DNA of 64,000 bases, from assembly GCF_019797845.1 (NCBI RefSeq), contig NZ_CP081864.1, positions 3,720,001 to 3,784,000 of the forward strand, given 5' to 3'. A program made the position numbers and the translations under genes. The notes beneath the pieces are model-generated. The model worked only from the letters and a program-made list of their open reading frames with translations, did no database searches and was not told the origin of the DNA. Source of the stretch: Symbiopectobacterium purcellii. GTDB taxonomy: Bacteria; Pseudomonadota; Gammaproteobacteria; Enterobacterales; Enterobacteriaceae. This document shows, in pieces, positions 3,075 through 60,109 of this stretch (position 1 is the stretch's first letter; each line of letters opens with the position of its first letter).

Positions 3075-3842
3075 TCAGACCAGTTTTCCCTGAAAAATCG
3101 GTACCGAATCGAAAAGATAACCATCAAATTCTGGCGCATCCGCATCGGAAATCGCCATCAGCGTACTTTTGACGTTTTCCAGATGCTCCCACATCGCCTG
3201 ATAGGCACCCGGTACGTCGCGTCGGCGCAGCGCGGCCAGAATAGTCTGGTGGTCCGCCAGCCATTTCAGACGATAGCCGTGTTTGCCAACGTGCGCATAA
3301 AGCTGCTGCCACAGGGGATTATCGTCACGGCAGGTCCAGATATGGCTGACCGATTCCAGCAGCATCTGGTTTTGCGTCGCGCCGGCAATTTGCAGATGAA
3401 AAAGCTTGTCGTAATCGCTGCGGTAGTCGTTTGCCGCAATCGCCGCCTGCTCTTTTTCCAGCGTAACGCGCAGATTTTCAATATCGGCACGGGTCGCCAT
3501 ACGTGCGGCAAAGGCCGCAATGTTACTCTCCAACAGTTGGCGGGCCTGTAACATTTCAAAAGCACCAATGCGGTGATGCGCCTGACTCTCTTGCGTTTCT
3601 TCATCGGGGATGCAGAGCACGTAGACACCCGATCCCTGACGAATATCAACGGTGCCTTCCAGCTCCAGCATCAGCAGCGCTTCACGCACAATGGTGCGGC
3701 TAACGCCGTAGGTTTCGGCAATGTTTCTTTCCGGCGGCAGGCGCGACCCGACCGGGAATTTTCCCTGCTGGATTTTCACGCGCAGATCGCTGCCGATCTC
3801 CTGATACTGTTTCTTTTCTTGCAGAACCACATCTTTTGCCAC
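3075..3842 (-). CDS. GntR-family (FadR subfamily) transcriptional regulator
   Basis: A 255-residue regulator with an N-terminal winged helix-turn-helix (about residues 10-78; LPPERNIAETYGVSRTIVRE is the typical core) and a C-terminal FCD ligand-binding domain (about 95-225). It resembles the UxuR/ExuR group. Start is GTG at 3842, with AGGG seven bases upstream. It lies downstream of the PTS/beta-glucosidase genes, and the promoter region of those genes contains TTGGCATACCAA-type palindromes, close to the known UxuR/ExuR-class operator TTGGTATACCAA. The likely role is local repression of the beta-glucoside genes; this link is inferred. Confidence 0.85.
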   Translation of the reverse strand: MAKDVVLQEKKQYQEIGSDLRVKIQQGKFPVGSRLPPERNIAETYGVSRTIVREALLMLELEGTVDIRQGSGVYVLCIPDEETQESQAHHRIGAFEMLQARQLLESNIAAFAARMATRADIENLRVTLEKEQAAIAANDYRSDYDKLFHLQIAGATQNQMLLESVSHIWTCRDDNPLWQQLYAHVGKHGYRLKWLADHQTILAALRRRDVPGAYQAMWEHLENVKSTLMAISDADAPEFDGYLFDSVPIFQGKLV

Positions 3843-3934
3843 ACATTCACCCTAGCTACCGCAGCCCAACAAATAACGCGCACGTTGACCAGATGCCACC
3901 GTGTCAGAGTACGACGGCACACCGGTTAACAACA

Positions 3935-7662: not shown

Positions 7663-8817
7663 CTAGTCTTGATCCAGCTGTGCCGCCACGTAGAGCAGAA
7701 ACCGATCCTCAAAACTCGCCAGATTCAGTCCGGTCAGTTCAGCAATGCGCCGCAAGCGGTATTCAAGCGTATTTTTGTGAATAAACAGCGCCTTGGCTGT
7801 CTCACCGGCCTGCTGATTATGGCGAAACCAGGTATGCAAGGTTTTTCGAAACACCCCGTTGCCGTCATTCGCTTTTAGCCGCTGCAACGGGCTTACCAGC
7901 TCTGCCGCTTGCCAGCCATCGCGCAGACTGTCGAGCAGCACCGGCAGTTTGATGTCCTGATAGCAGAAGCAGTGCACATCGGGCATCCGCTGTTTGCCTA
8001 CACTGATGGTGGTTTTCGCCGTGTGGTAAGAGCGCACCACGCCCCCTTCCTGCGGGAAAAAGTTACCCAGTGCCAGACGAACTTTAAGCGGGCTGCCCTG
8101 CTGCAAACGCTGATAAAGCTGTGCCATGCGGCGCTTGTGCTCTTCGGGCTCCCAGCGCTCCGCGTGCAGATAGGCGGGTTTCAACACCACCATTTCGGTG
8201 AGTGACACAATCGCCATCAGATCATCTTTACCGGTTTCCATCAGCAGAGACTGCAACTGCTGCAATTCGCTCATTGCCGTGCTGACACCGAGCTGGCCGC
8301 TGTCCAACTCCACCACCATGGCGACGCGCGGCAATGCCAGATCGACCCCCAAACGTTGCGCCCACTCCTGCATGGTGGCGGAGTAGTTATCATTGCGCAC
8401 CATGCTCAACACCAGCTCTTCACGCAAGCGGCTGTTTTGCGCCAGCAGTTGCAGCAAATGAGCCTGTTCCAGCATCATTTCCGCCGTCATGCACACCAAC
8501 TCGCCAAATTGCAGCAGCCCATCGGGATCGCCAGTCAGGCCAATCACACCGACGATTTGGTTATTTAACCGCAGCGGCAGGTTCAGACCGGGCCTGACAC
8601 CGTGCAGCGTATGCATGGAAGCATCATCAATCGATACCACCCGTTGCTGACTGAGCGCCAATAGCGCCCCTTCGTGAATTTCGCCAATACGTTCGCGATC
8701 GCCGCTGCCAATAATTCGGCCTCTGGCATCCATGACGTTGATATTACAGTCAATAATTTTCATGGTGCGTTCAACGATCGAATAAGCTAATTTCGCGTCG
8801 AAATCATAATCTGTCAT
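7663..8817 (-). CDS. cdaR: CdaR-family sugar diacid/glycerate regulator
   Basis: A 384-residue regulator of the CdaR (SdaR) family. The N-terminal putative sugar-diacid recognition domain covers about residues 1-135. The C-terminal PucR-type helix-turn-helix is at about 325-380 (HKNTLEYRLRRIAELTGL). E. coli CdaR activates glucarate, galactarate and glycerate genes and responds to glycerate. It lies downstream of pyruvate kinase, glycerate kinase and a GntP permease on the same strand, which fits a local activator of glycerate use. AGGGGA lies upstream of the ATG at 8817. Orthology to CdaR is likely, but the regulon here may be only this cluster. Confidence 0.85.
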   Translation of the reverse strand: MTDYDFDAKLAYSIVERTMKIIDCNINVMDARGRIIGSGDRERIGEIHEGALLALSQQRVVSIDDASMHTLHGVRPGLNLPLRLNNQIVGVIGLTGDPDGLLQFGELVCMTAEMMLEQAHLLQLLAQNSRLREELVLSMVRNDNYSATMQEWAQRLGVDLALPRVAMVVELDSGQLGVSTAMSELQQLQSLLMETGKDDLMAIVSLTEMVVLKPAYLHAERWEPEEHKRRMAQLYQRLQQGSPLKVRLALGNFFPQEGGVVRSYHTAKTTISVGKQRMPDVHCFCYQDIKLPVLLDSLRDGWQAAELVSPLQRLKANDGNGVFRKTLHTWFRHNQQAGETAKALFIHKNTLEYRLRRIAELTGLNLASFEDRFLLYVAAQLDQD

Positions 8818-9111: not shown

Positions 9112-10554
9112 TTATTCCACGATGCAAATACGACAGGTATTGGTACTGCCAATTTGTCCGACGCTGTCACCCTGCGTCAAAATGACGCGGTCACCGGTCA
9201 CAATCGCGCCGCGCGCTTTCAGCAGTGCGATGGCATCCTGCGCCGCGCCCAGCCCTTCGGCACGGCCGTTGAACGGCAAGGGCGTAACGCCGCGATACAG
9301 CGCAACCTGATTCAGCGTTTCGGCATGACGCGATAGCGCATAAATCGGCAAACGGGAGCTAATGCGAGACATCATGCGGGCAGTGCGACCTGACTCCGTC
9401 ATCGCGATCACGGCTTTAACCCCCTGCAAATGGTTAGCCGCATACATCGCAGACATCGATGCCATCTCTTCAACATTGGTAAACTGCACGTCGAGGCGGT
9501 GTTTCGAGGTGGTGATGCTCGGGCTACGCTCAGCCCCCAGGCACACGTTCGCCATCGCCGCTACCGCTTGCGCCGGATAGCTGCCTGCGGCAGTTTCCGC
9601 CGATAGCATGACCGCATCGGTGCCGTCCAACACCGCATTGGCAACGTCCATTACTTCAGCACGGGTCGGCATCGGGCTGGAAATCATCGATTCCATCATT
9701 TGCGTCGCAGTGATCACCACGCGATTCAACTGACGCGAGCGCTGAATCAGGCGCTTCTGGACGCCCACTAGCGCGGCATCACCAATTTCTACGCCCAAAT
9801 CGCCCCGTGCAACCATGATGACGTCCGCCGCCAGGATCATATCATCCATGTTTTCTGGCGTGGCAACGGTTTCTGCGCGCTCCACCTTGGCAACAATGGC
9901 CGCCTGACAGCCCGCTTCGCGCGCCAAACGACGCGCATAGCGTAAATCGTCCCCGGTGCGTGGAAACGAGACCGCCAGAAAATCTACCTTCATTCTGGCT
10001 GCCAGCAGAATATCTGCCTTGTCTTTTTCCGTCAGCGCTTCGGCTGAAAGCCCACCGCCGAGCTTGTTGACGCCTTTATTATTGGAAAGGATTCCGCCTA
10101 CGGTGACGGCGGTGATGATTTTTTCGCCCTCAATGCGCACGACACGCAGTTGAATACGGCCATCGTCCAGCAACAGAATATCGCCTGGCACCACATCACG
10201 CGGCAGCGCCTTATAATCGATGCCAACCTGAGTATTATCGCCCAGGCCTTTTTCCAACAAGGCATCAAGAATAAAGGTATCTCCAACATGCAGAAATACT
10301 TTACCTTCTTTAAAGGTTGATACCCGAATTTTCGGCCCTTGCAAATCGCCCAAAATAGCCACTGACTTACCCAAACGCTGGGCAATAGCACGAACCTGTT
10401 CCGCACGCGCAATATGATCGTCTGCCGCACCGTGCGAGAAATTAAAGCGGACTACGTTAGCACCCGCGCTAATTATTTTTTCCAGATTATTATCGCGATC
10501 GGTTGCCGGGCCGAGAGTAGCAACAATCTTGGTGCGCCGAAGTGTTTCAGTCAT
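9112..10554 (-). CDS. Pyruvate kinase (PykA-like, type II)
   Basis: A 480-residue glycolytic enzyme converting phosphoenolpyruvate and ADP to pyruvate and ATP. Length and sequence resemble E. coli PykA (480 residues): the start [19 protein letters not shown], the catalytic-lysine strand IVAKVERAE, the signature TATQMMESM and [10 protein letters not shown] are all present. It follows the glycerate kinase gene by 30 bases on the same strand. In this setting it probably drains the 2-phosphoglycerate made from glycerate (via enolase) to pyruvate, and is likely a second copy beside housekeeping pyk genes elsewhere. AGGGA lies before the ATG at 10554. All expected motifs are intact. Confidence 0.93.
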
Positions 10555-10584: not shown

Positions 10585-11737
10585 TTATGCCGCCGCTTTT
10601 TTCAACAGGCGGCCAATATTCTCGCACGCACGTTCCATATTAATCGGGCCATCTTTCAGCAGCGCTTCAATATTGTCTGCGCGCGGAATAATGCCGAAAA
10701 TGGTGTCGATGCCTTCGCCGTACAGCGCTTCAACACCTTCGCCAACGCAGCCGGATACTGCAATAACCGGTACGCCCTGTGCTTTGGCGGTTCTGGCAAC
10801 GCCGTAAGGGGTTTTACCGAACTTGGTTTGGTAATCGATACGCCCTTCGCCAGTAAAGCAGAAATCCGCACCGGCCAGTTTGTCACTCAGCCCGCTGAAT
10901 TCGACGACAATATCAATGCCTCTACGCAGTGTGCATTGGGTGAAAGCCATCAGCCCCGCGCCCAGACCGCCCGCCGCGCCGGCACCCGGCACAGTGGCAA
11001 TCTCTTTGCCCAACTGATTGCGGATCACCGCCGCGTAATGCGCCAGATTGTTATCCAACTGTGCGACCATCTCCGGCGTTGCCCCTTTCTGTGGGCCGAA
11101 AATCGCTGATGCCCCCTGCTCGCCGCACAGTGGGTTGGTGACATCACAGGCAACCTGAATATCCACCTGTGCCAGGCGGCTATCCAACCCGGAAAGATCG
11201 ATATGATGCAAACGATCCAGCGCGCCGCCGCCGCGCGGCAGCGTGTTGCCCGCTTCATCATAAAAACGCACGCCCAGCGCTTCTGCCATGCCTGCGCCAC
11301 CATCATTGGTTGCGCTGCCACCGATGCCCAGAATGATTTTCTTGATGCCTTTGTCCAGGCAGGCGCGGATCAGTTCACCGGTGCCGTAGGTGGTGGTCAC
11401 CAACGGGTTTTTGGTGTCGCGGTTAACAAATTGAATACCGCTGGCAGACGCCATTTCAATCACGGCAATCTCGCCGTTCCCCATGATGCCGTAGCTGGCC
11501 TCAATCGTTTCTCCCAACGGCCCGGTCGCGTTTAACGCATACAGCGTGCCTTCGGTCGCATCAATCAGCGACTGGGTGGTGCCTTCGCCGCCATCCGCCA
11601 TCCGCCATGGGAACGTGCACGAAATTCGCTTCGGGGAATACCTTACGCAACCCTTTTTCCATCGCGTTACACACTTCTTTCGCCGTCATGCTCTCTTTAA
11701 ATGAATCGGGCGCTAATACAAACGTTTCTTGTTTCAT
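10585..11737 (-). pseudogene. garK: Glycerate kinase (GarK/GlxK family), broken by a 7-bp repeat frameshift
   Basis: The 5' frame starts at the ATG at 11737 (MKQETFVLAPDSFKESMTAK...VPMADGG) and the 3' frame continues EGTTQSLIDATEG to the end at 10585. They join at three tandem copies of ATGGCGG (11588-11608, minus strand), where family members need two. Removing one 7-bp unit restores a 381-residue protein, exactly the length of E. coli GarK/GlxK. The enzyme phosphorylates glycerate to 2-phosphoglycerate. As read, translation stops about a dozen residues after the repeat. The rest of the protein looks fully conserved, so the lesion is recent, reversible by slippage, or a read error. It lies in the operon GntP permease - garK - pyk. 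Confidence 0.9.
11588..11608 (-). repeat. Three tandem 7-bp repeats (ATGGCGG) in garK
   Basis: The plus strand reads CCGCCAT three times without interruption. Two copies encode the family-conserved MADGG-E sequence; the third shifts the frame by one. Short tandem repeats of this kind expand and contract by slipped-strand mispairing. Confidence 0.9.
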
Positions 11738-11753: not shown

Positions 11754-13067
11754 CTAAAGAATAAAGCCGTACAGCACGGTAGCGACAAGGGTCATGGTGC
11801 CACCGACAATCGCTTCGTAGGGCAGCAGGCCCATACGCTGTCTGATGGTCATGTTCATGCTCTGCGCTGTGACGTGGAAATAGTTGCCCTGCGGCAAGGA
11901 GTCGATAACGGTCGCCCCGGTGTGTACCATGACCGCAGAGGCAATCGGCGCAATGCCGATAGTGGCGATAGCATTACCGAAGGTTCCGGTCGCCAGAATG
12001 GTCCCGGTGGAGGTGGACGCCGTGGCTGCCGCCATCAAAATACCGGAGATAGGTGCCAGGAAGGTGCCGGAAATACCCATGATGTCAATCAGTTGTACCA
12101 CCTGGGCAGACAGGTTGGAGGCAGCGATCAGGCCTGCAATTGCACCCGCACCAATCAGGATAAGCACGGTCGCAGTCATTTTTTCCAGACCGGAAGCGGT
12201 ATAGGCAATCACCTTGTGCTTTTGCCCCATGGCAATCAGACCGACGATACCGGCGATCGGCAATACATACAGGGCATCCAGCTTGAACGCGGTCAGCGCG
12301 CTGATGTGAAAAATGGAACCAATCGGGTTAATCATCAATAAGATAACGGCAACCGCTGGCGCGACGATGGCTTTACCCAACGTGGGGTAGGTTTTGTCAT
12401 TCTTCGCGCTCTGGGTGCCGTAGGCAGCGGCGGCTTCTTCACCACTTACCATGATCCCTTTATTTTTCAACATTGAGGCGACAACGACAGTAATAATCAA
12501 CCCGAATACGGCAGGAATAAAACCGGCGATCATCACATCGCTTAAATTCAGGTGAAAACCGTTTGCTGCGGCAATAGTATTGGGGTTCGGCGATATAATA
12601 TTCCCAGCTTTACCGCCGCCGGAAAGCGCCAGTAATAATGCCAGTTTGGAAATACCCATTTTATTACCCACCGATAACGCAATGGGTGCAACAATTAATA
12701 CGGCAACGGGGATAAATACGCCCACCGCAGTGATGATCATGGTGGCCAGTGCCAGCGCTAAAATCGCTTTGCTCTCCCCCATCTTCCTCACAATGGCCTG
12801 AGCGATGGTTTCTGCCGCGCCCGATTCCATCATCACGCCAGCCAGTACCCCCGCAGCCAGCACGCGGATCACCGTACCCATCACACTCTGCGTGCCAGAT
12901 GTCAGCAGGCCGATGGTCTGTTCAAGATTACCACCGCCGATCACCGCACCGAGAATGGCGCCGAGGAACAAGGAATACACCGGATTAATTTTTTTCAGGA
13001 TGAGCGCAATGGCAATGAAAAGACCAATCAACGCCCCGTACCATGCCAAGGGTTCTATGGTATGCAT
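11754..13067 (-). CDS. GntP-family permease, probable glycerate transporter
   Basis: A 437-residue inner-membrane transporter of the gluconate:H+ symporter family, with about twelve hydrophobic helices and the conserved stretches LALSGGGKAGNIISPNPNT and ATASTSTGTILATGTFG. First gene of the minus-strand operon, 16 bases before garK, followed by pyruvate kinase and the CdaR regulator. Family members carry gluconate, idonate, glycerate or related hydroxy acids; the neighbouring glycerate kinase makes D-glycerate the best guess. AGAGG lies before the ATG at 13067. Substrate assignment rests on context only. Confidence 0.85.
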   Translation of the reverse strand: MHTIEPLAWYGALIGLFIAIALILKKINPVYSLFLGAILGAVIGGGNLEQTIGLLTSGTQSVMGTVIRVLAAGVLAGVMMESGAAETIAQAIVRKMGESKAILALALATMIITAVGVFIPVAVLIVAPIALSVGNKMGISKLALLLALSGGGKAGNIISPNPNTIAAANGFHLNLSDVMIAGFIPAVFGLIITVVVASMLKNKGIMVSGEEAAAAYGTQSAKNDKTYPTLGKAIVAPAVAVILLMINPIGSIFHISALTAFKLDALYVLPIAGIVGLIAMGQKHKVIAYTASGLEKMTATVLILIGAGAIAGLIAASNLSAQVVQLIDIMGISGTFLAPISGILMAAATASTSTGTILATGTFGNAIATIGIAPIASAVMVHTGATVIDSLPQGNYFHVTAQSMNMTIRQRMGLLPYEAIVGGTMTLVATVLYGFIL

Positions 13068-15926: not shown

Positions 15927-15960
15927 ATCAGGATTTCTCCCGGTTAAGGATATTGGCCAG

Positions 15961-16713
15961 TCAGGTCACCAGCAGCACGACGAGGAAATAGGAGATCACC
16001 AGCGCACTGGTAAAGTGCCCGCTGTCATTACGTTTGTTGTAGAGATACACCTGCAACGTTTCAAAGCGGGTGCCTACCAGCAGGTTGGCAAACACAAACT
16101 CGCCAATCAGGAAAGAGAACGAAAGCAATACCGCGATCATCACGCCTTTACGCAAATTAGGCAGCACCACCCACAGCGCCGCTTGCCAGGTACTGGCACC
16201 CAATAAATGCGCCGCATCGAGCAGCTCTTTGAGGTTAATCGCCTGAATGTTGTTGGAAATGGCGCGATAGATAAAAGGCAGCGCAATAGCAAAGTAGCAG
16301 CCGATCAAAATCCAGGGCGTGCCGGTAATCGCGAGTGGGCCTGAGGAATAGAGCTGCAACAATCCGACAGAAGAGACCACCGGTGGCACCGAGAACGGCA
16401 GCAAAATCAGCACGTTCATCACCCCATCCAAACGCGGAAACCACCAGGCGATGACAAACATCGCGGGCAACACCAGCAGCAGTGAAAACAGCAGTGCGCC
16501 AAAACAGATCAGCAGCGAATGGCCCAGTGCCACCAAAAACCGGCCGTCGCCCCACAGGGCAATAAACCACTTTAGCGTCACGCCGTTGGGCAGAATGGTG
16601 GCGCCCCACTCTGTCGCCAGCGCATAGCCCAAGGTGGCGAGCAGTGGCAACAGCAGAATCAGCAGCACCAGTAATACCACCGTCTGATGGTAGCGCCGTT
16701 CAAAGGATGACAT
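15961..16713 (-). CDS. ABC transporter inner-membrane permease 2 (C-terminus cut by a TGA)
   Basis: A 250-residue permease with about six membrane spans. The EAA-type cytoplasmic loop is at DAAHLLGASTWQAALWVVLP, as in PotC/FbpB-class permeases. The frame ends at TGA (15961-15963) after FLVVLLVT. Reading through gives LANILNREKS and a second TGA at 15928-15930, one base before the ATPase start, so the ancestral protein was probably 261 residues with Trp (TGG) at the stop position. The loss removes only the last 11 residues after the final helix and may be tolerated. GGAGG precedes the ATG at 16713. Confidence 0.85.
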   Translation of the reverse strand: MSSFERRYHQTVVLLVLLILLLPLLATLGYALATEWGATILPNGVTLKWFIALWGDGRFLVALGHSLLICFGALLFSLLLVLPAMFVIAWWFPRLDGVMNVLILLPFSVPPVVSSVGLLQLYSSGPLAITGTPWILIGCYFAIALPFIYRAISNNIQAINLKELLDAAHLLGASTWQAALWVVLPNLRKGVMIAVLLSFSFLIGEFVFANLLVGTRFETLQVYLYNKRNDSGHFTSALVISYFLVVLLVT

Positions 16714-32482: not shown

Positions 32483-32948
32483 ATGTACCAGATAGACGAT
32501 TATGATTTGAAAATGCTGACCTTACTGCAAACCAACGGCCGCTTGACCAATCAAGAGTTAAGCGAGCTAATCGGATTATCCGCATCGCAGTGCTCGCGCC
32601 GTCGCATTGCGCTTGAACAGGCTAAACAGATCCTGGGCTACCACGCCCGCCTGGCACCCAATGCCATCGGTCTGGATGTGTCTGGGTTTGATCGAAGTGC
32701 GCCTGATCAACCATACCCCCGACTACGTGGAGCGCTTTCACCAAATGCTAGGAGAGGTGGATGCGATCATTGATGCCTATAAAACCACCGGCGATGCCGA
32801 CTATTTACTGAAAGTTGCAGTAGCCGATCTGCAAGGGCTGAGCGATCTGATCAGTCGCATCTTGTCGCAGAATAAAAGCGTTTCTCATCTGAAGACCTCG
32901 GTGGTACTGAATCGCCTAAAAGAGAATGGGCTCATGTTGCCTAACTGA
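32483..32948 (+). pseudogene. Lrp/AsnC-family regulator with a 1-bp frameshift
   Basis: The first frame (MYQIDDYDLKMLTLLQTNGR ... APNAIGLDV) carries the complete helix-turn-helix (NQELSELIGLSASQCSRRR). The second frame resumes LGLIEVRLINHTPDYVERFH and runs through the ligand-binding RAM/AsnC domain to LKENGLMLPN. They join at GATGTG-T-CTGGGT (about 32681), where one extra T breaks the frame. Deleting it gives a normal 154-residue protein. As read, the product stops at 32773 without its oligomerisation domain. It is divergent from the aromatic permease, its likely target. The lesion looks recent because both halves remain well conserved. Confidence 0.88.
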
Positions 32949-39434: not shown

Positions 39435-42266
39435 TTACCTGCGTGCCAATATCGGCTTGAGGAAACGGGCAGTGTGCGATGCGTCGCAATTGGCTACCGT
39501 CTCTGGGGTGCCGGACACCAGTATTTGACCGCCACCGCTGCCCCCTTCCGGACCAAGGTCTACAATCCAGTCTGCGGTTTTAATCACATCCAGATTATGC
39601 TCAATCACCACAATGGTGTTCCCCTGATCGCGCAGTTGGTGCAATACGTCCAACAATTGCTGAATATCGGCGAAATGCAGCCCGGTGGTCGGCTCATCAA
39701 GAATATACAGGGTTTGACCGGTTCCTCGCTTGGACAGCTCACGAGACAGTTTTACACGCTGTGCTTCACCGCCGGAGAGCGTGGTTGCCGACTGGCCAAG
39801 ACGAATATAGGAAAGCCCCACGTCGATAAGGGTTTGCAGCTTGCGCGCCAACGCAGGAATGGCATCAAAGAAGTCACGCGCCTCCTCAATGGTCATTTCC
39901 AACACTTCGTGGATGCTTTTACCCTTATATTTGATTTCCAGCGTTTCACGGTTGTAGCGTTTGCCTTTGCACTGATCGCACGGTACATAGATATCCGGCA
40001 AGAAGTGCATCTCCACTTTGATGACGCCATCGCCCTGACAGGCCTCACAGCGCCCGCCGCGCACGTTGAAACTAAAGCGCCCCGGGTTGTATCCGCGGCT
40101 TCTCGCTTCTGGTACGCCAGCAAACAGTTCACGGATAGGGGTAAATACGCCCGTATAAGTCGCCGGGTTGGAACGCGGTGTGCGCCCAATCGGGCTTTGA
40201 TCGATATCGATCACCTTATCAAAATGCTCAAGACCATGAATTTCACGGTACGGTGCCGGTTCCGCCAGCGTTGCACCATTGAGTTGACGTTGCGCCAGCG
40301 GAAACAGCGTATCGTTAATCAGCGTCGATTTGCCGGAACCAGAGACACCGGTGATGCAGGTGAACAACCCGACAGGCAGCGTCAGCGTGACATCTTTCAG
40401 GTTGTTGCCCTTCGCGCCCACCAGCTTTAGCACTTTGGTAGGATCGGCAGGCACCCGTTGCGACGGCACTGAGATTTTTCGCTCACCGCTCAGGTACTGT
40501 CCGGTCAGCGATTCAGGCACCGCCATAATCTTTTCTACCGTACCTTCCCCTACCACCTGGCCGCCGTGCACCCCAGCACCCGGACCGATATCAATCACAT
40601 GATCCGCCGCGCGAATGGCGTCTTCATCGTGTTCCACCACAATCACCGTGTTACCCAGATTGCGCAGGTGGATCAAGGTTTCCAGCAGGCGTTCATTGTC
40701 CCGCTGGTGCAAGCCAATGGAGGGTTCATCCAATACGTACATCACCCCCACCAACCCGGCACCAATTTGGCTCGCCAGTCGGATACGCTGCGCTTCACCG
40801 CCAGAAAGAGTTTCGGCAGAACGCGACAGCGACAGGTAGTTCAATCCTACGTTCACCAGGAACTTCAGACGATCGCCTATCTCCTTCAACACCTTTTCAG
40901 CAATCTGCGCGCGCTGACCACTTAGCTTCATGTTTTGGAAGAATGTCATCGCATGGCCGATACTCATGTCGGAAATCTGCGGCAGCGTAGTCTGTTCGAC
41001 AAACACATGGCGCGCTTCCTTACGCAGGCGCGTGCCGCTGCAACTGGCACAGGGACGATTGCTGATGAACTTGGCCAGCTCTTCGCGCACCGCGCTTGAT
41101 TCGGTTTCCTTGTAACGCCGCTCCATGTTGTTCAACACGCCCTCGAAAGGATGGCGTCGCACCGACGTATCGCCACGATCGTTGATGTATTTGAACTCGA
41201 TAGTGTCTTTACCGGAGCCGTAAAGAATGACGTGACGAATTTTTTCACTCAGGCTGTCGTAGGGGGCCTCGACATCAAAACGGTAATGCTCCGCCAGTGA
41301 ACGCAGCATCTGAAAATAGTAAAAGTTGCGTCGATCCCAGCCGCGAATAGCCCCCCCCGCCAGCGACAGCTCACCGTTTTGCACCACACGCGCTGGATCG
41401 AAGAACTGTTGCACGCCCAATCCATCACAGCTCGGACAGGCACCTGCCGGGTTGTTAAAGGAGAACATGCGCGGTTCCAGCTCATGCATGCTGTAGCCAC
41501 ACTGCGGACAAGCAAAGTTGGCGGAGAACAGCAGTTCGGGCAACTTGCTGTCATCCATATCCGCCACGATGGCGCTACCGCCGGAAAGCTCCAGCGCAGT
41601 TTCAAACGATTCCGCCAGACGCTGTGCCAAATCTTCACGCACCTTGAAACGATCGACCACCACTTCAATGGTGTGTTTTTTCTGTAATTCCAGCTTGGGC
41701 GGATCGGAAAGATCGCACACTTCGCCGTCGATACGGGCGCGGATATAGCCTTGTGTCGCCAGGTTTTCCAGCGTTTTGGTGTGCTCCCCTTTGCGATCTT
41801 TAACAATGGGGGCGAGCAGCATCAGGCGAGTCCCTTCCGGCTGCGCCAGCACGTTATCCACCATCTGACTGACAGTCTGTGCTGCCAGTGGTACGTCGTG
41901 ATCCGGACAGCGTGGCTCACCCACGCGGGCAAAGAGCAGGCGCAAATAGTCGTGAATCTCGGTGATGGTACCCACGGTTGAGCGCGGGTTATGAGATGTG
42001 GATTTTTGCTCGATGGAAATCGCCGGTGACAACCCTTCGATATGATCGACGTCCGGCTTCTCCATTAACGAGAGAAACTGGCGCGCGTAGGCAGACAACG
42101 ATTCAACGTAGCGCCGCTGCCCTTCCGCATACAGGGTATCAAACGCCAGCGACGATTTACCGGATCCCGACAACCCGGTGACCACAATCAGTTTATCGCG
42201 GGGAATTACCAGATTGATATTTTTGAGGTTATGAGTACGGGCACCACGAACTTCGATCTTATCCAT
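39435..42266 (-). CDS. uvrA: Excinuclease ABC subunit A
   Basis: A 943-residue DNA-damage recognition ATPase of nucleotide excision repair (E. coli 940). It has two ABC modules: Walker [10 protein letters not shown] near residue 31 and GVSGSGKST near 640; signatures LSGGEAQRI and LSGGEAQRV. Zinc-binding cysteines are in [10 protein letters not shown]...CPSCDGLG and CEACQGDGV...CDQCKGKRY. It is divergent from ssb, with a LexA box in the shared region. Intact. Confidence 0.97.
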
Positions 42267-59228: not shown

Positions 59229-60109
59229 ATGAGCAAACGTATTACCGGCGTGTTGACCGCAATCGTCACGCCCTTTGACGGTCAGGGTGAATTCAATCCA
59301 ACAGCATTGCGCGCACAGATTCAGCGCCAGATGCGGTATGGCAACGGTATCTTCTGCAACGGTACCAACGGCGAATTCTTCGTACTACATACCGATGAAA
59401 AAGTCGCGGTGACTGAAACCTGCGTGGATGAAGTGGCAGGCAAAGCACCGGTGGTAGGCCATATCGGTGAAATATCTACGCGTGAAACCATCAAGCTCGG
59501 CAAGCGTATCGCCGCACTCGGTGTCGACGCCGTTTCGGTTATCACTCCCTATTTCATTCCGCTGAAACAAGAAGAACTGATCGCCCACTACCGCGCGGTA
59601 GCGGATGCGTTAACCGTTCCGATCTTCCTCTACAACATTCCTGCACGTACCGGCAATACGCTTACGCCGGAAACCGTGCGCATTCTCGCCGATCATCCCA
59701 ACATCATCGGCATCAAGGACAGTGCAGGTAGCTATGAAAGCCTGAACGGCTTCCTGCAAGCCGCTAAAGATATGCCGAACTTTGACGTGCTCACGGGCCG
59801 GACTCCTTGATTCATCAGGGCTTCGTCGAAGGCTGCTCCGCCTGTATTTCCGGGCTGGCTAACGTGGCACCAGAGCCTATCAGCCAAATCTGGCACCGTT
59901 TCCATGCCGGTGATATCGACGGCTCCCGTCAGGTGCAGGAACAGGTCAGCGAGCTGAGAAAAACGCTGTACGCCATTGCGTTCTCGCCTGCCGCAGTGAA
60001 AAAGGCACTGACGTTAATGGGCCATGACGTTGGCGTAAGTCGCTACCCTATCCAGTTCTCCGAACAGGATGAAGCAGCTATCCGTCGTATCGTCAGCGCC
60101 TTTGCATAG
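59229..60109 (+). pseudogene. DapA/NanA-family aldolase with a 1-bp deletion
   Basis: The first frame (MSKRITGVLTAIVTPFDGQG ... NFDVLTG) has the class I aldolase features: FCNGTNGEFF substrate loop, Tyr in YNIPARTGNTL and the Schiff-base Lys in IIGIKDSAG. It then runs into RTP-stop at 59810. The second frame continues PDSLIHQGFVEGCSACISGL to 60109. They join at ACGGGCCGGAC (59794-59804): one C is missing from a GGGCCC run. Restoring it gives 293 residues, normal for the family, which splits 2-keto-3-deoxy acids into pyruvate and an aldehyde. As read, the last third of the barrel is lost. Either a recent mutation or a homopolymer read error. Confidence 0.88.

Follow-up and report, generated by a model that had tools for sequence, protein, structure and literature searches.

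A third copy of a codon-made heptamer repeat splits a glycerate kinase gene, probably a young pseudogene, in a Symbiopectobacterium genome

A glycerate kinase gene (PF02595) in the Symbiopectobacterium genome studied here is split by three exact tandem copies of the heptamer ATGGCGG. We consider it most probably a young pseudogene, produced by one slipped-strand duplication that was tolerated under relaxed selection on the pathway, and give this reading a probability of about 0.83. The gene lies in a window of 64,000 nucleotides, the whole stretch of DNA that was analysed, which covers positions 3,720,001-3,784,000 of a genome (G000) assembled as one contig of 4,942,431 bases. Features of the window are collected in Table 1.

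Results

The native frame of the kinase opens with an ATG at 11737, runs for 43 codons into the repeat and reaches a stop at 11561. No single open frame crosses the PF02595 domain; in a profile search the gene is matched as two pieces (profile positions 36-371 and 1-43 of 372), with the break at positions 36-43. Both pieces score above the Pfam cut-off for PF02595 (466.9 and 51.7 bits), and the long piece also scores 466.1 bits against TIGR00045, for which the cut-off is 168.45. The initial annotation had described three ATGGCGG units where the intact form has two, a frame broken by the 7-bp expansion, an intact length of 381 residues and a remainder that is pristine, and the comparisons bear out each of these points. 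The three copies are exact, and they cut the gene in two, leaving 58 residues at the start and 338 in the remainder. The orthologue in G004 has two units and is a single open frame of 381 codons, the same length as E. coli garK (381 residues, one genome read). The 338-codon frame is open, and codon changes in the kinase on the window genome's branch comprise 21 synonymous and only 1 nonsynonymous, which indicates that the gene was under selection until recently.

Table 1. Coordinates of the repeat tract, the kinase pieces, their neighbours and other broken genes in the window.
Feature	Position	Strand	Remarks
ATGGCGG x3 tract	11588..11608	-	exact tandem units; two-unit length in relatives
Kinase fragment 1	11561..11737	-	43 native codons, repeat and frame-shifted tail; 58 residues in all
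Kinase fragment 2	10585..11601	-	338-codon frame; PF02595 profile 36-371 of 372; TIGR00045
GntP-like permease	11754..13067	-	intact, 437 aa; directly upstream of kinase
Pyruvate kinase	9112..10554	-	intact, 480 aa; directly downstream of kinase
CdaR/SdaR-like sugar-diacid regulator	7663..8817	-	Diacid_rec and PucR HTH domains; intact, 384 aa
DHDPS-family protein, broken	59229-60106		frameshift
Lrp/AsnC-type regulator, broken	32483-32945		frameshift
ABC transporter permease, broken	15931-16713		nonsense codon
Fifth broken call	3183-3890		spurious open frame possible

The closest named match of the long piece, at 99% protein identity, is in 'Candidatus Symbiopectobacterium' sp. NZEC151 (G004), an isolate from New Zealand potato (PMC10019282). 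The third unit is a recent gain private to the window genome's lineage, because all four of the other Symbiopectobacterium genomes compared have the two-unit length and the G004 gene is open. In two of the four (G001 and G003) the units are not perfect copies of each other. Unless the assembly is in error, the difference is thus a real tandem gain. An open orthologue in a close relative, together with a lesion private to the window genome, is what would be expected of a pseudogene in an eroding symbiont genome. With one genome per species, the comparison of repeat number yields no copy-number series, only the two-unit length in four relatives and three units here. This kinase is also present, at 96% protein identity, in a record titled Serratia marcescens 1001295B_180824_A7; G002, which matches that record, was placed in the window's genus, and the record name is probably wrong.

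The repeat arises from the coding of the protein itself. The conserved motif [M/V]-A-D-G-G, coded RTGGCGGATGGCGG, forms a ready-made 7-bp repeat, and the coding of Pro-Met-Ala-Asp-Gly-Gly-Glu-Gly places ATGGCGG twice in tandem as a perfect 7-bp direct repeat. Of 392 family genomes, 38 contain this perfect two-unit form, at 42 places in all. Thirty of these places were read by eye, and all lie in glycerate kinase, 29 with the native frame running through the motif and one, in G029, with the frame broken. The expanded pattern occurs in just two of the 392 genomes, the window genome and G029, the latter almost certainly 'Ca. Sodalis pierantonius'. In a class-wide draw of 369 genomes, only three others of which belong to its order, the window genome alone had the pattern. 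When 198 family genomes were searched for three plain units, two places in G107 matched too; they were rejected, as the frames there hold no kinase. E. coli was dropped as a strain-level comparison; its garK codes the motif without a perfect repeat (one genome read), and a megablast of the kinase region against E. coli genomes gave no match.

Three-copy heptamers are rare in the window genome. The kinase tract is the sole exact heptamer tract with at least three copies in the 464 kb around the site; a simulated first-order Markov sequence of 464 kb (n=1) contained none. Among the 72 heptamer tracts with at least two copies in 1.264 Mb of the genome, the kinase tract alone reaches three. When periods of 5-12 that are not multiples of 3 are taken together, the same 1.264 Mb holds three tracts with at least three copies (the kinase heptamer, a 10-mer and a 5-mer), the 10-mer lying outside long open frames, and no enrichment in frame-shifting repeat tracts of these periods was detected. 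Three-copy tracts of a four-base unit are as frequent in the 464 kb as in the simulation. The 5-mer, GCGTT in 3.2 copies at contig position 1965333, lies in or at the edge of a 339-codon frame and is a possible frame-shifting tract; arrays of 9 bp at contig positions 42162 (6.4 copies) and 197417 (4.0 copies) are likewise placed within long open frames or at their edges.

Across genomes, at least three copies are reached by 4 of 32 heptamer tracts in G029 (415 kb), 2 of 28 in S. endolongispinus (400 kb), 1 of 30 in the window genome (464 kb), 0 of 33 in G004 and 0 of 20 in G002. On these small numbers, heptamer expansion seems to go with genome erosion. Frame-shifting arrays of period at least 5 are present in the eroding symbionts G029 and G001 (heptamers to about 7 copies, an 8-mer x9, a 5-mer x13 and a 10-mer x3.9), and 780 kb of G004 and G002 contained no such tandem arrays of period 5-12 that is not a multiple of 3.

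The permease, the split kinase and the pyruvate kinase are probably members of the same operon, judging from their spacing. The GntP-like permease is a distant member of its family, since it falls below the curated cut-off of all five models that it matched. Outside the repeat the kinase is open, as are the permease, the pyruvate kinase and the regulator that lies beyond it, so operon decay in the window genome rests on one lesion. The kinase, permease, pyruvate kinase and regulator are all open as well in NZEC151 and in the Serratia marcescens 1001295B record. In S. endolongispinus the kinase orthologue has two other frame breaks (the first deduced from a frame that does not open until well past the gene's normal start), with a broken permease and a split regulator. 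'North America' has an open kinase but a split pyruvate kinase and a split regulator. Both sister symbionts show decay of the same operon via other lesions. The permease of S. endolongispinus, which adjoins the broken kinase, also carries a hexamer array of 9.8 copies (locus L027, about 2700-2765) that reads as repeated Glu-His in one frame.

A second PF02595 gene, a garK paralogue that spans profile positions 1-371 in one open frame, is located at contig positions 3,636,346-3,637,458. Three genes adjoining it are broken here and intact in both G004 and G002. Their Pfam folds (an enolase-superfamily protein, an HpcH/HpaI aldolase and a 3-hydroxyisobutyrate-dehydrogenase-like reductase) and their position beside garK suggest that they are gudD-, garL- and garR-like.

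The comparison set 464 kb of the window genome against 400 kb from G004 and 380 kb from G002; alignments longer than 2 kb average 92.3% (G004) and 87.5% (G002) identity to the window genome. Of 253 G004 genes that are intact in G002, 206 are intact in the window genome and 15 are broken; a further 2 are partial and 11 weak, and 19 have no match. Among 219 window-genome genes intact in G002, two are broken in G004. Starting from G002's genes gives an even-handed count, with both genomes treated alike, and here 14 of 259 are broken in the window genome versus 6 of 220 in G004. Both counts thus show a real rise in the load of broken genes in the window genome; it is modest, only about twofold by the even-handed count, and comes from one 464-kb stretch. 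Among the 15 broken genes are the gudD-, garL- and garR-like neighbours of the intact garK; two of the 15 (g4_47 and g4_206) may be spurious open frames, and nonsynonymous changes outnumber synonymous ones in g4_206.

The lesions in the window genome are of many kinds: 1-bp indels, deletions of 4, 11, 17 and 34 bp, one larger deletion and nonsense codons. We found 23 private indels in 221 aligned genes, of which 11 are frame-shifting and lie in broken genes, and only one of these 11, that in the kinase, is a multi-base tandem gain. Of the six private 1-bp events in aligned genes, four are in runs of at most 2 bases, one is in a run of five A and one is beside a run of eight G.

Discussion

The best account of the split kinase starts from the two tandem ATGGCGG copies set by the codons of the motif: within this Symbiopectobacterium lineage a single slipped-strand event during replication probably inserted one more unit, which put the gene out of frame, and the mutation probably persisted because selection on glycerate/glucarate catabolism was relaxed. 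The intact GarK paralogue and the already broken glucarate genes beside it are the reason to suppose such relaxation. If this account is correct, the kinase would have lost its enzyme activity and the third unit would persist by drift rather than by switching. Several considerations weigh against decay: the operon is otherwise open in the window genome, the broken-gene load in the count based on G002 is only about twice that of G004, two of the 15 broken genes may be spurious, and a three-unit heptamer can contract again.

A broader reading of the same events is that the invariant [M/V]-A-D-G-G-E-G motif builds a heptamer repeat into many enterobacterial glycerate kinases, and that in insect symbionts this tract has slipped again and again in separate lineages, and so forms a recurrent and in principle reversible site for inactivating glycerate/glucarate use during the move to host-restricted life. 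The expansions at this motif in the window genome and in G029 are what suggest it. Given the rates at which heptamer tracts reach three copies in eroding genomes, two kinase expansions are no great coincidence, which tempers a hotspot reading, and we regard it as unlikely.

Assembly or polishing error, with two units in the true gene, might seem to fit an otherwise open kinase whose protein is nearly unchanged, and yet we judge it improbable. Sequencing errors do not typically take the form of an exact 7-bp gain. The private 1-bp events (n=6, few) lack the pattern of a poorly polished long-read assembly, as four of the six are in runs of at most 2 bases, and nonsense codons and larger deletions occur in the same region.

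It had also been proposed that the slippage-prone tract makes glycerate use phase-variable, i.e. that a contingency locus flips it reversibly on and off by alternating between two and three copies. A unit length not divisible by 3, a position near the start of the gene and a conserved remainder would all suit such a switch. Heptamer switching also exists elsewhere: neuO, a known phase-variable gene, has 3 to 53 repeats among 64 genomes, with 20 the commonest number, according to the available part of PMC13001214, and the available part of a Haemophilus survey sets its heptamer threshold at three units (PMC2651432). The kinase tract, with three units, is thus at that threshold (PMC2651432) and equals the shortest neuO tract reported in the accessible portion of its source (PMC13001214), so that three units alone does not exclude switching, since neuO goes down to that number. 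Nevertheless, relatives uniformly have the two-unit length, of the 42 heptamer-pair sites in the 392 family genomes only those in G000 and G029 match the expanded pattern, and 1 of 72 heptamer tracts in 1.264 Mb stands at three copies. In addition, the paralogue is intact, its catabolic neighbours have been lost to lesions of different types and the S. endolongispinus orthologue is broken by other frameshifts. Within open-licence PMC articles we found no paper that links glycerate kinase, a tandem repeat and phase variation. The proposal of a switch is therefore unsupported, we think it highly improbable, and the tract carries little weight as evidence for a metabolic on/off switch.

A working short kinase, made from the 338-codon fragment by translation that starts at an ATG within the repeat, is barely credible: the second unit's ATG, which is the first of the fragment, is in frame with the remainder, but the product would lack the first 43 residues, which are present in both solved relatives (the fragment's alignment begins at chain residue 44 in 3cwc and at residue 42 in 1to6), and by eye this ATG has no spaced Shine-Dalgarno sequence and no good ribosome site, because GGCGG abuts it without a spacer.

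Read as a young pseudogene, the kinase offers a clean view of pathway decay at an early stage, in a bacterium closely related to insect symbionts: an enzyme gene lost to one tandem duplication in an operon whose other genes look intact. It also illustrates how a conserved protein motif can, through its codons, give rise to a slippage site, and the same site has been struck in a second symbiont. This expansion of the same codon-made repeat in a second symbiont is the new element, and a modest one; otherwise the case is ordinary gene decay.

Among known systems, the tract resembles those of E. coli K1 neuO and the Haemophilus hmw promoters in being a 7-bp tandem repeat, and that of neuO in lying in the 5' part of the coding sequence, where it sets the frame, as far as the available parts of the sources describe them (PMC13001214, PMC2651432). 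Unlike neuO, whose repeats in the accessible text vary widely among genomes (PMC13001214), the kinase has three units in one genome of its species. The gene is closer to the young 'near-complete' pseudogenes of early-stage insect symbionts (S. endolongispinus, Sodalis): it is nearly full length, was recently functional and has one small indel, other genes are broken, and the same pathway has been lost by related symbionts through different lesions. The window genome, with 15 of 253 compared genes broken, is nonetheless far less eroded than S. endolongispinus, for which the available part of PMC13345370 gives 2,679 pseudogenes versus 2,559 intact genes. The garK pseudogene of 'Ca. Sodalis pierantonius' (G029) shares the same heptamer in the same conserved motif, likewise expanded and frame-shifted, but it has seven units (GTGGCGG and six ATGGCGG) rather than three and, by eye, further damage, and it adjoins garL and garR, whereas the window kinase is the permease-linked copy.
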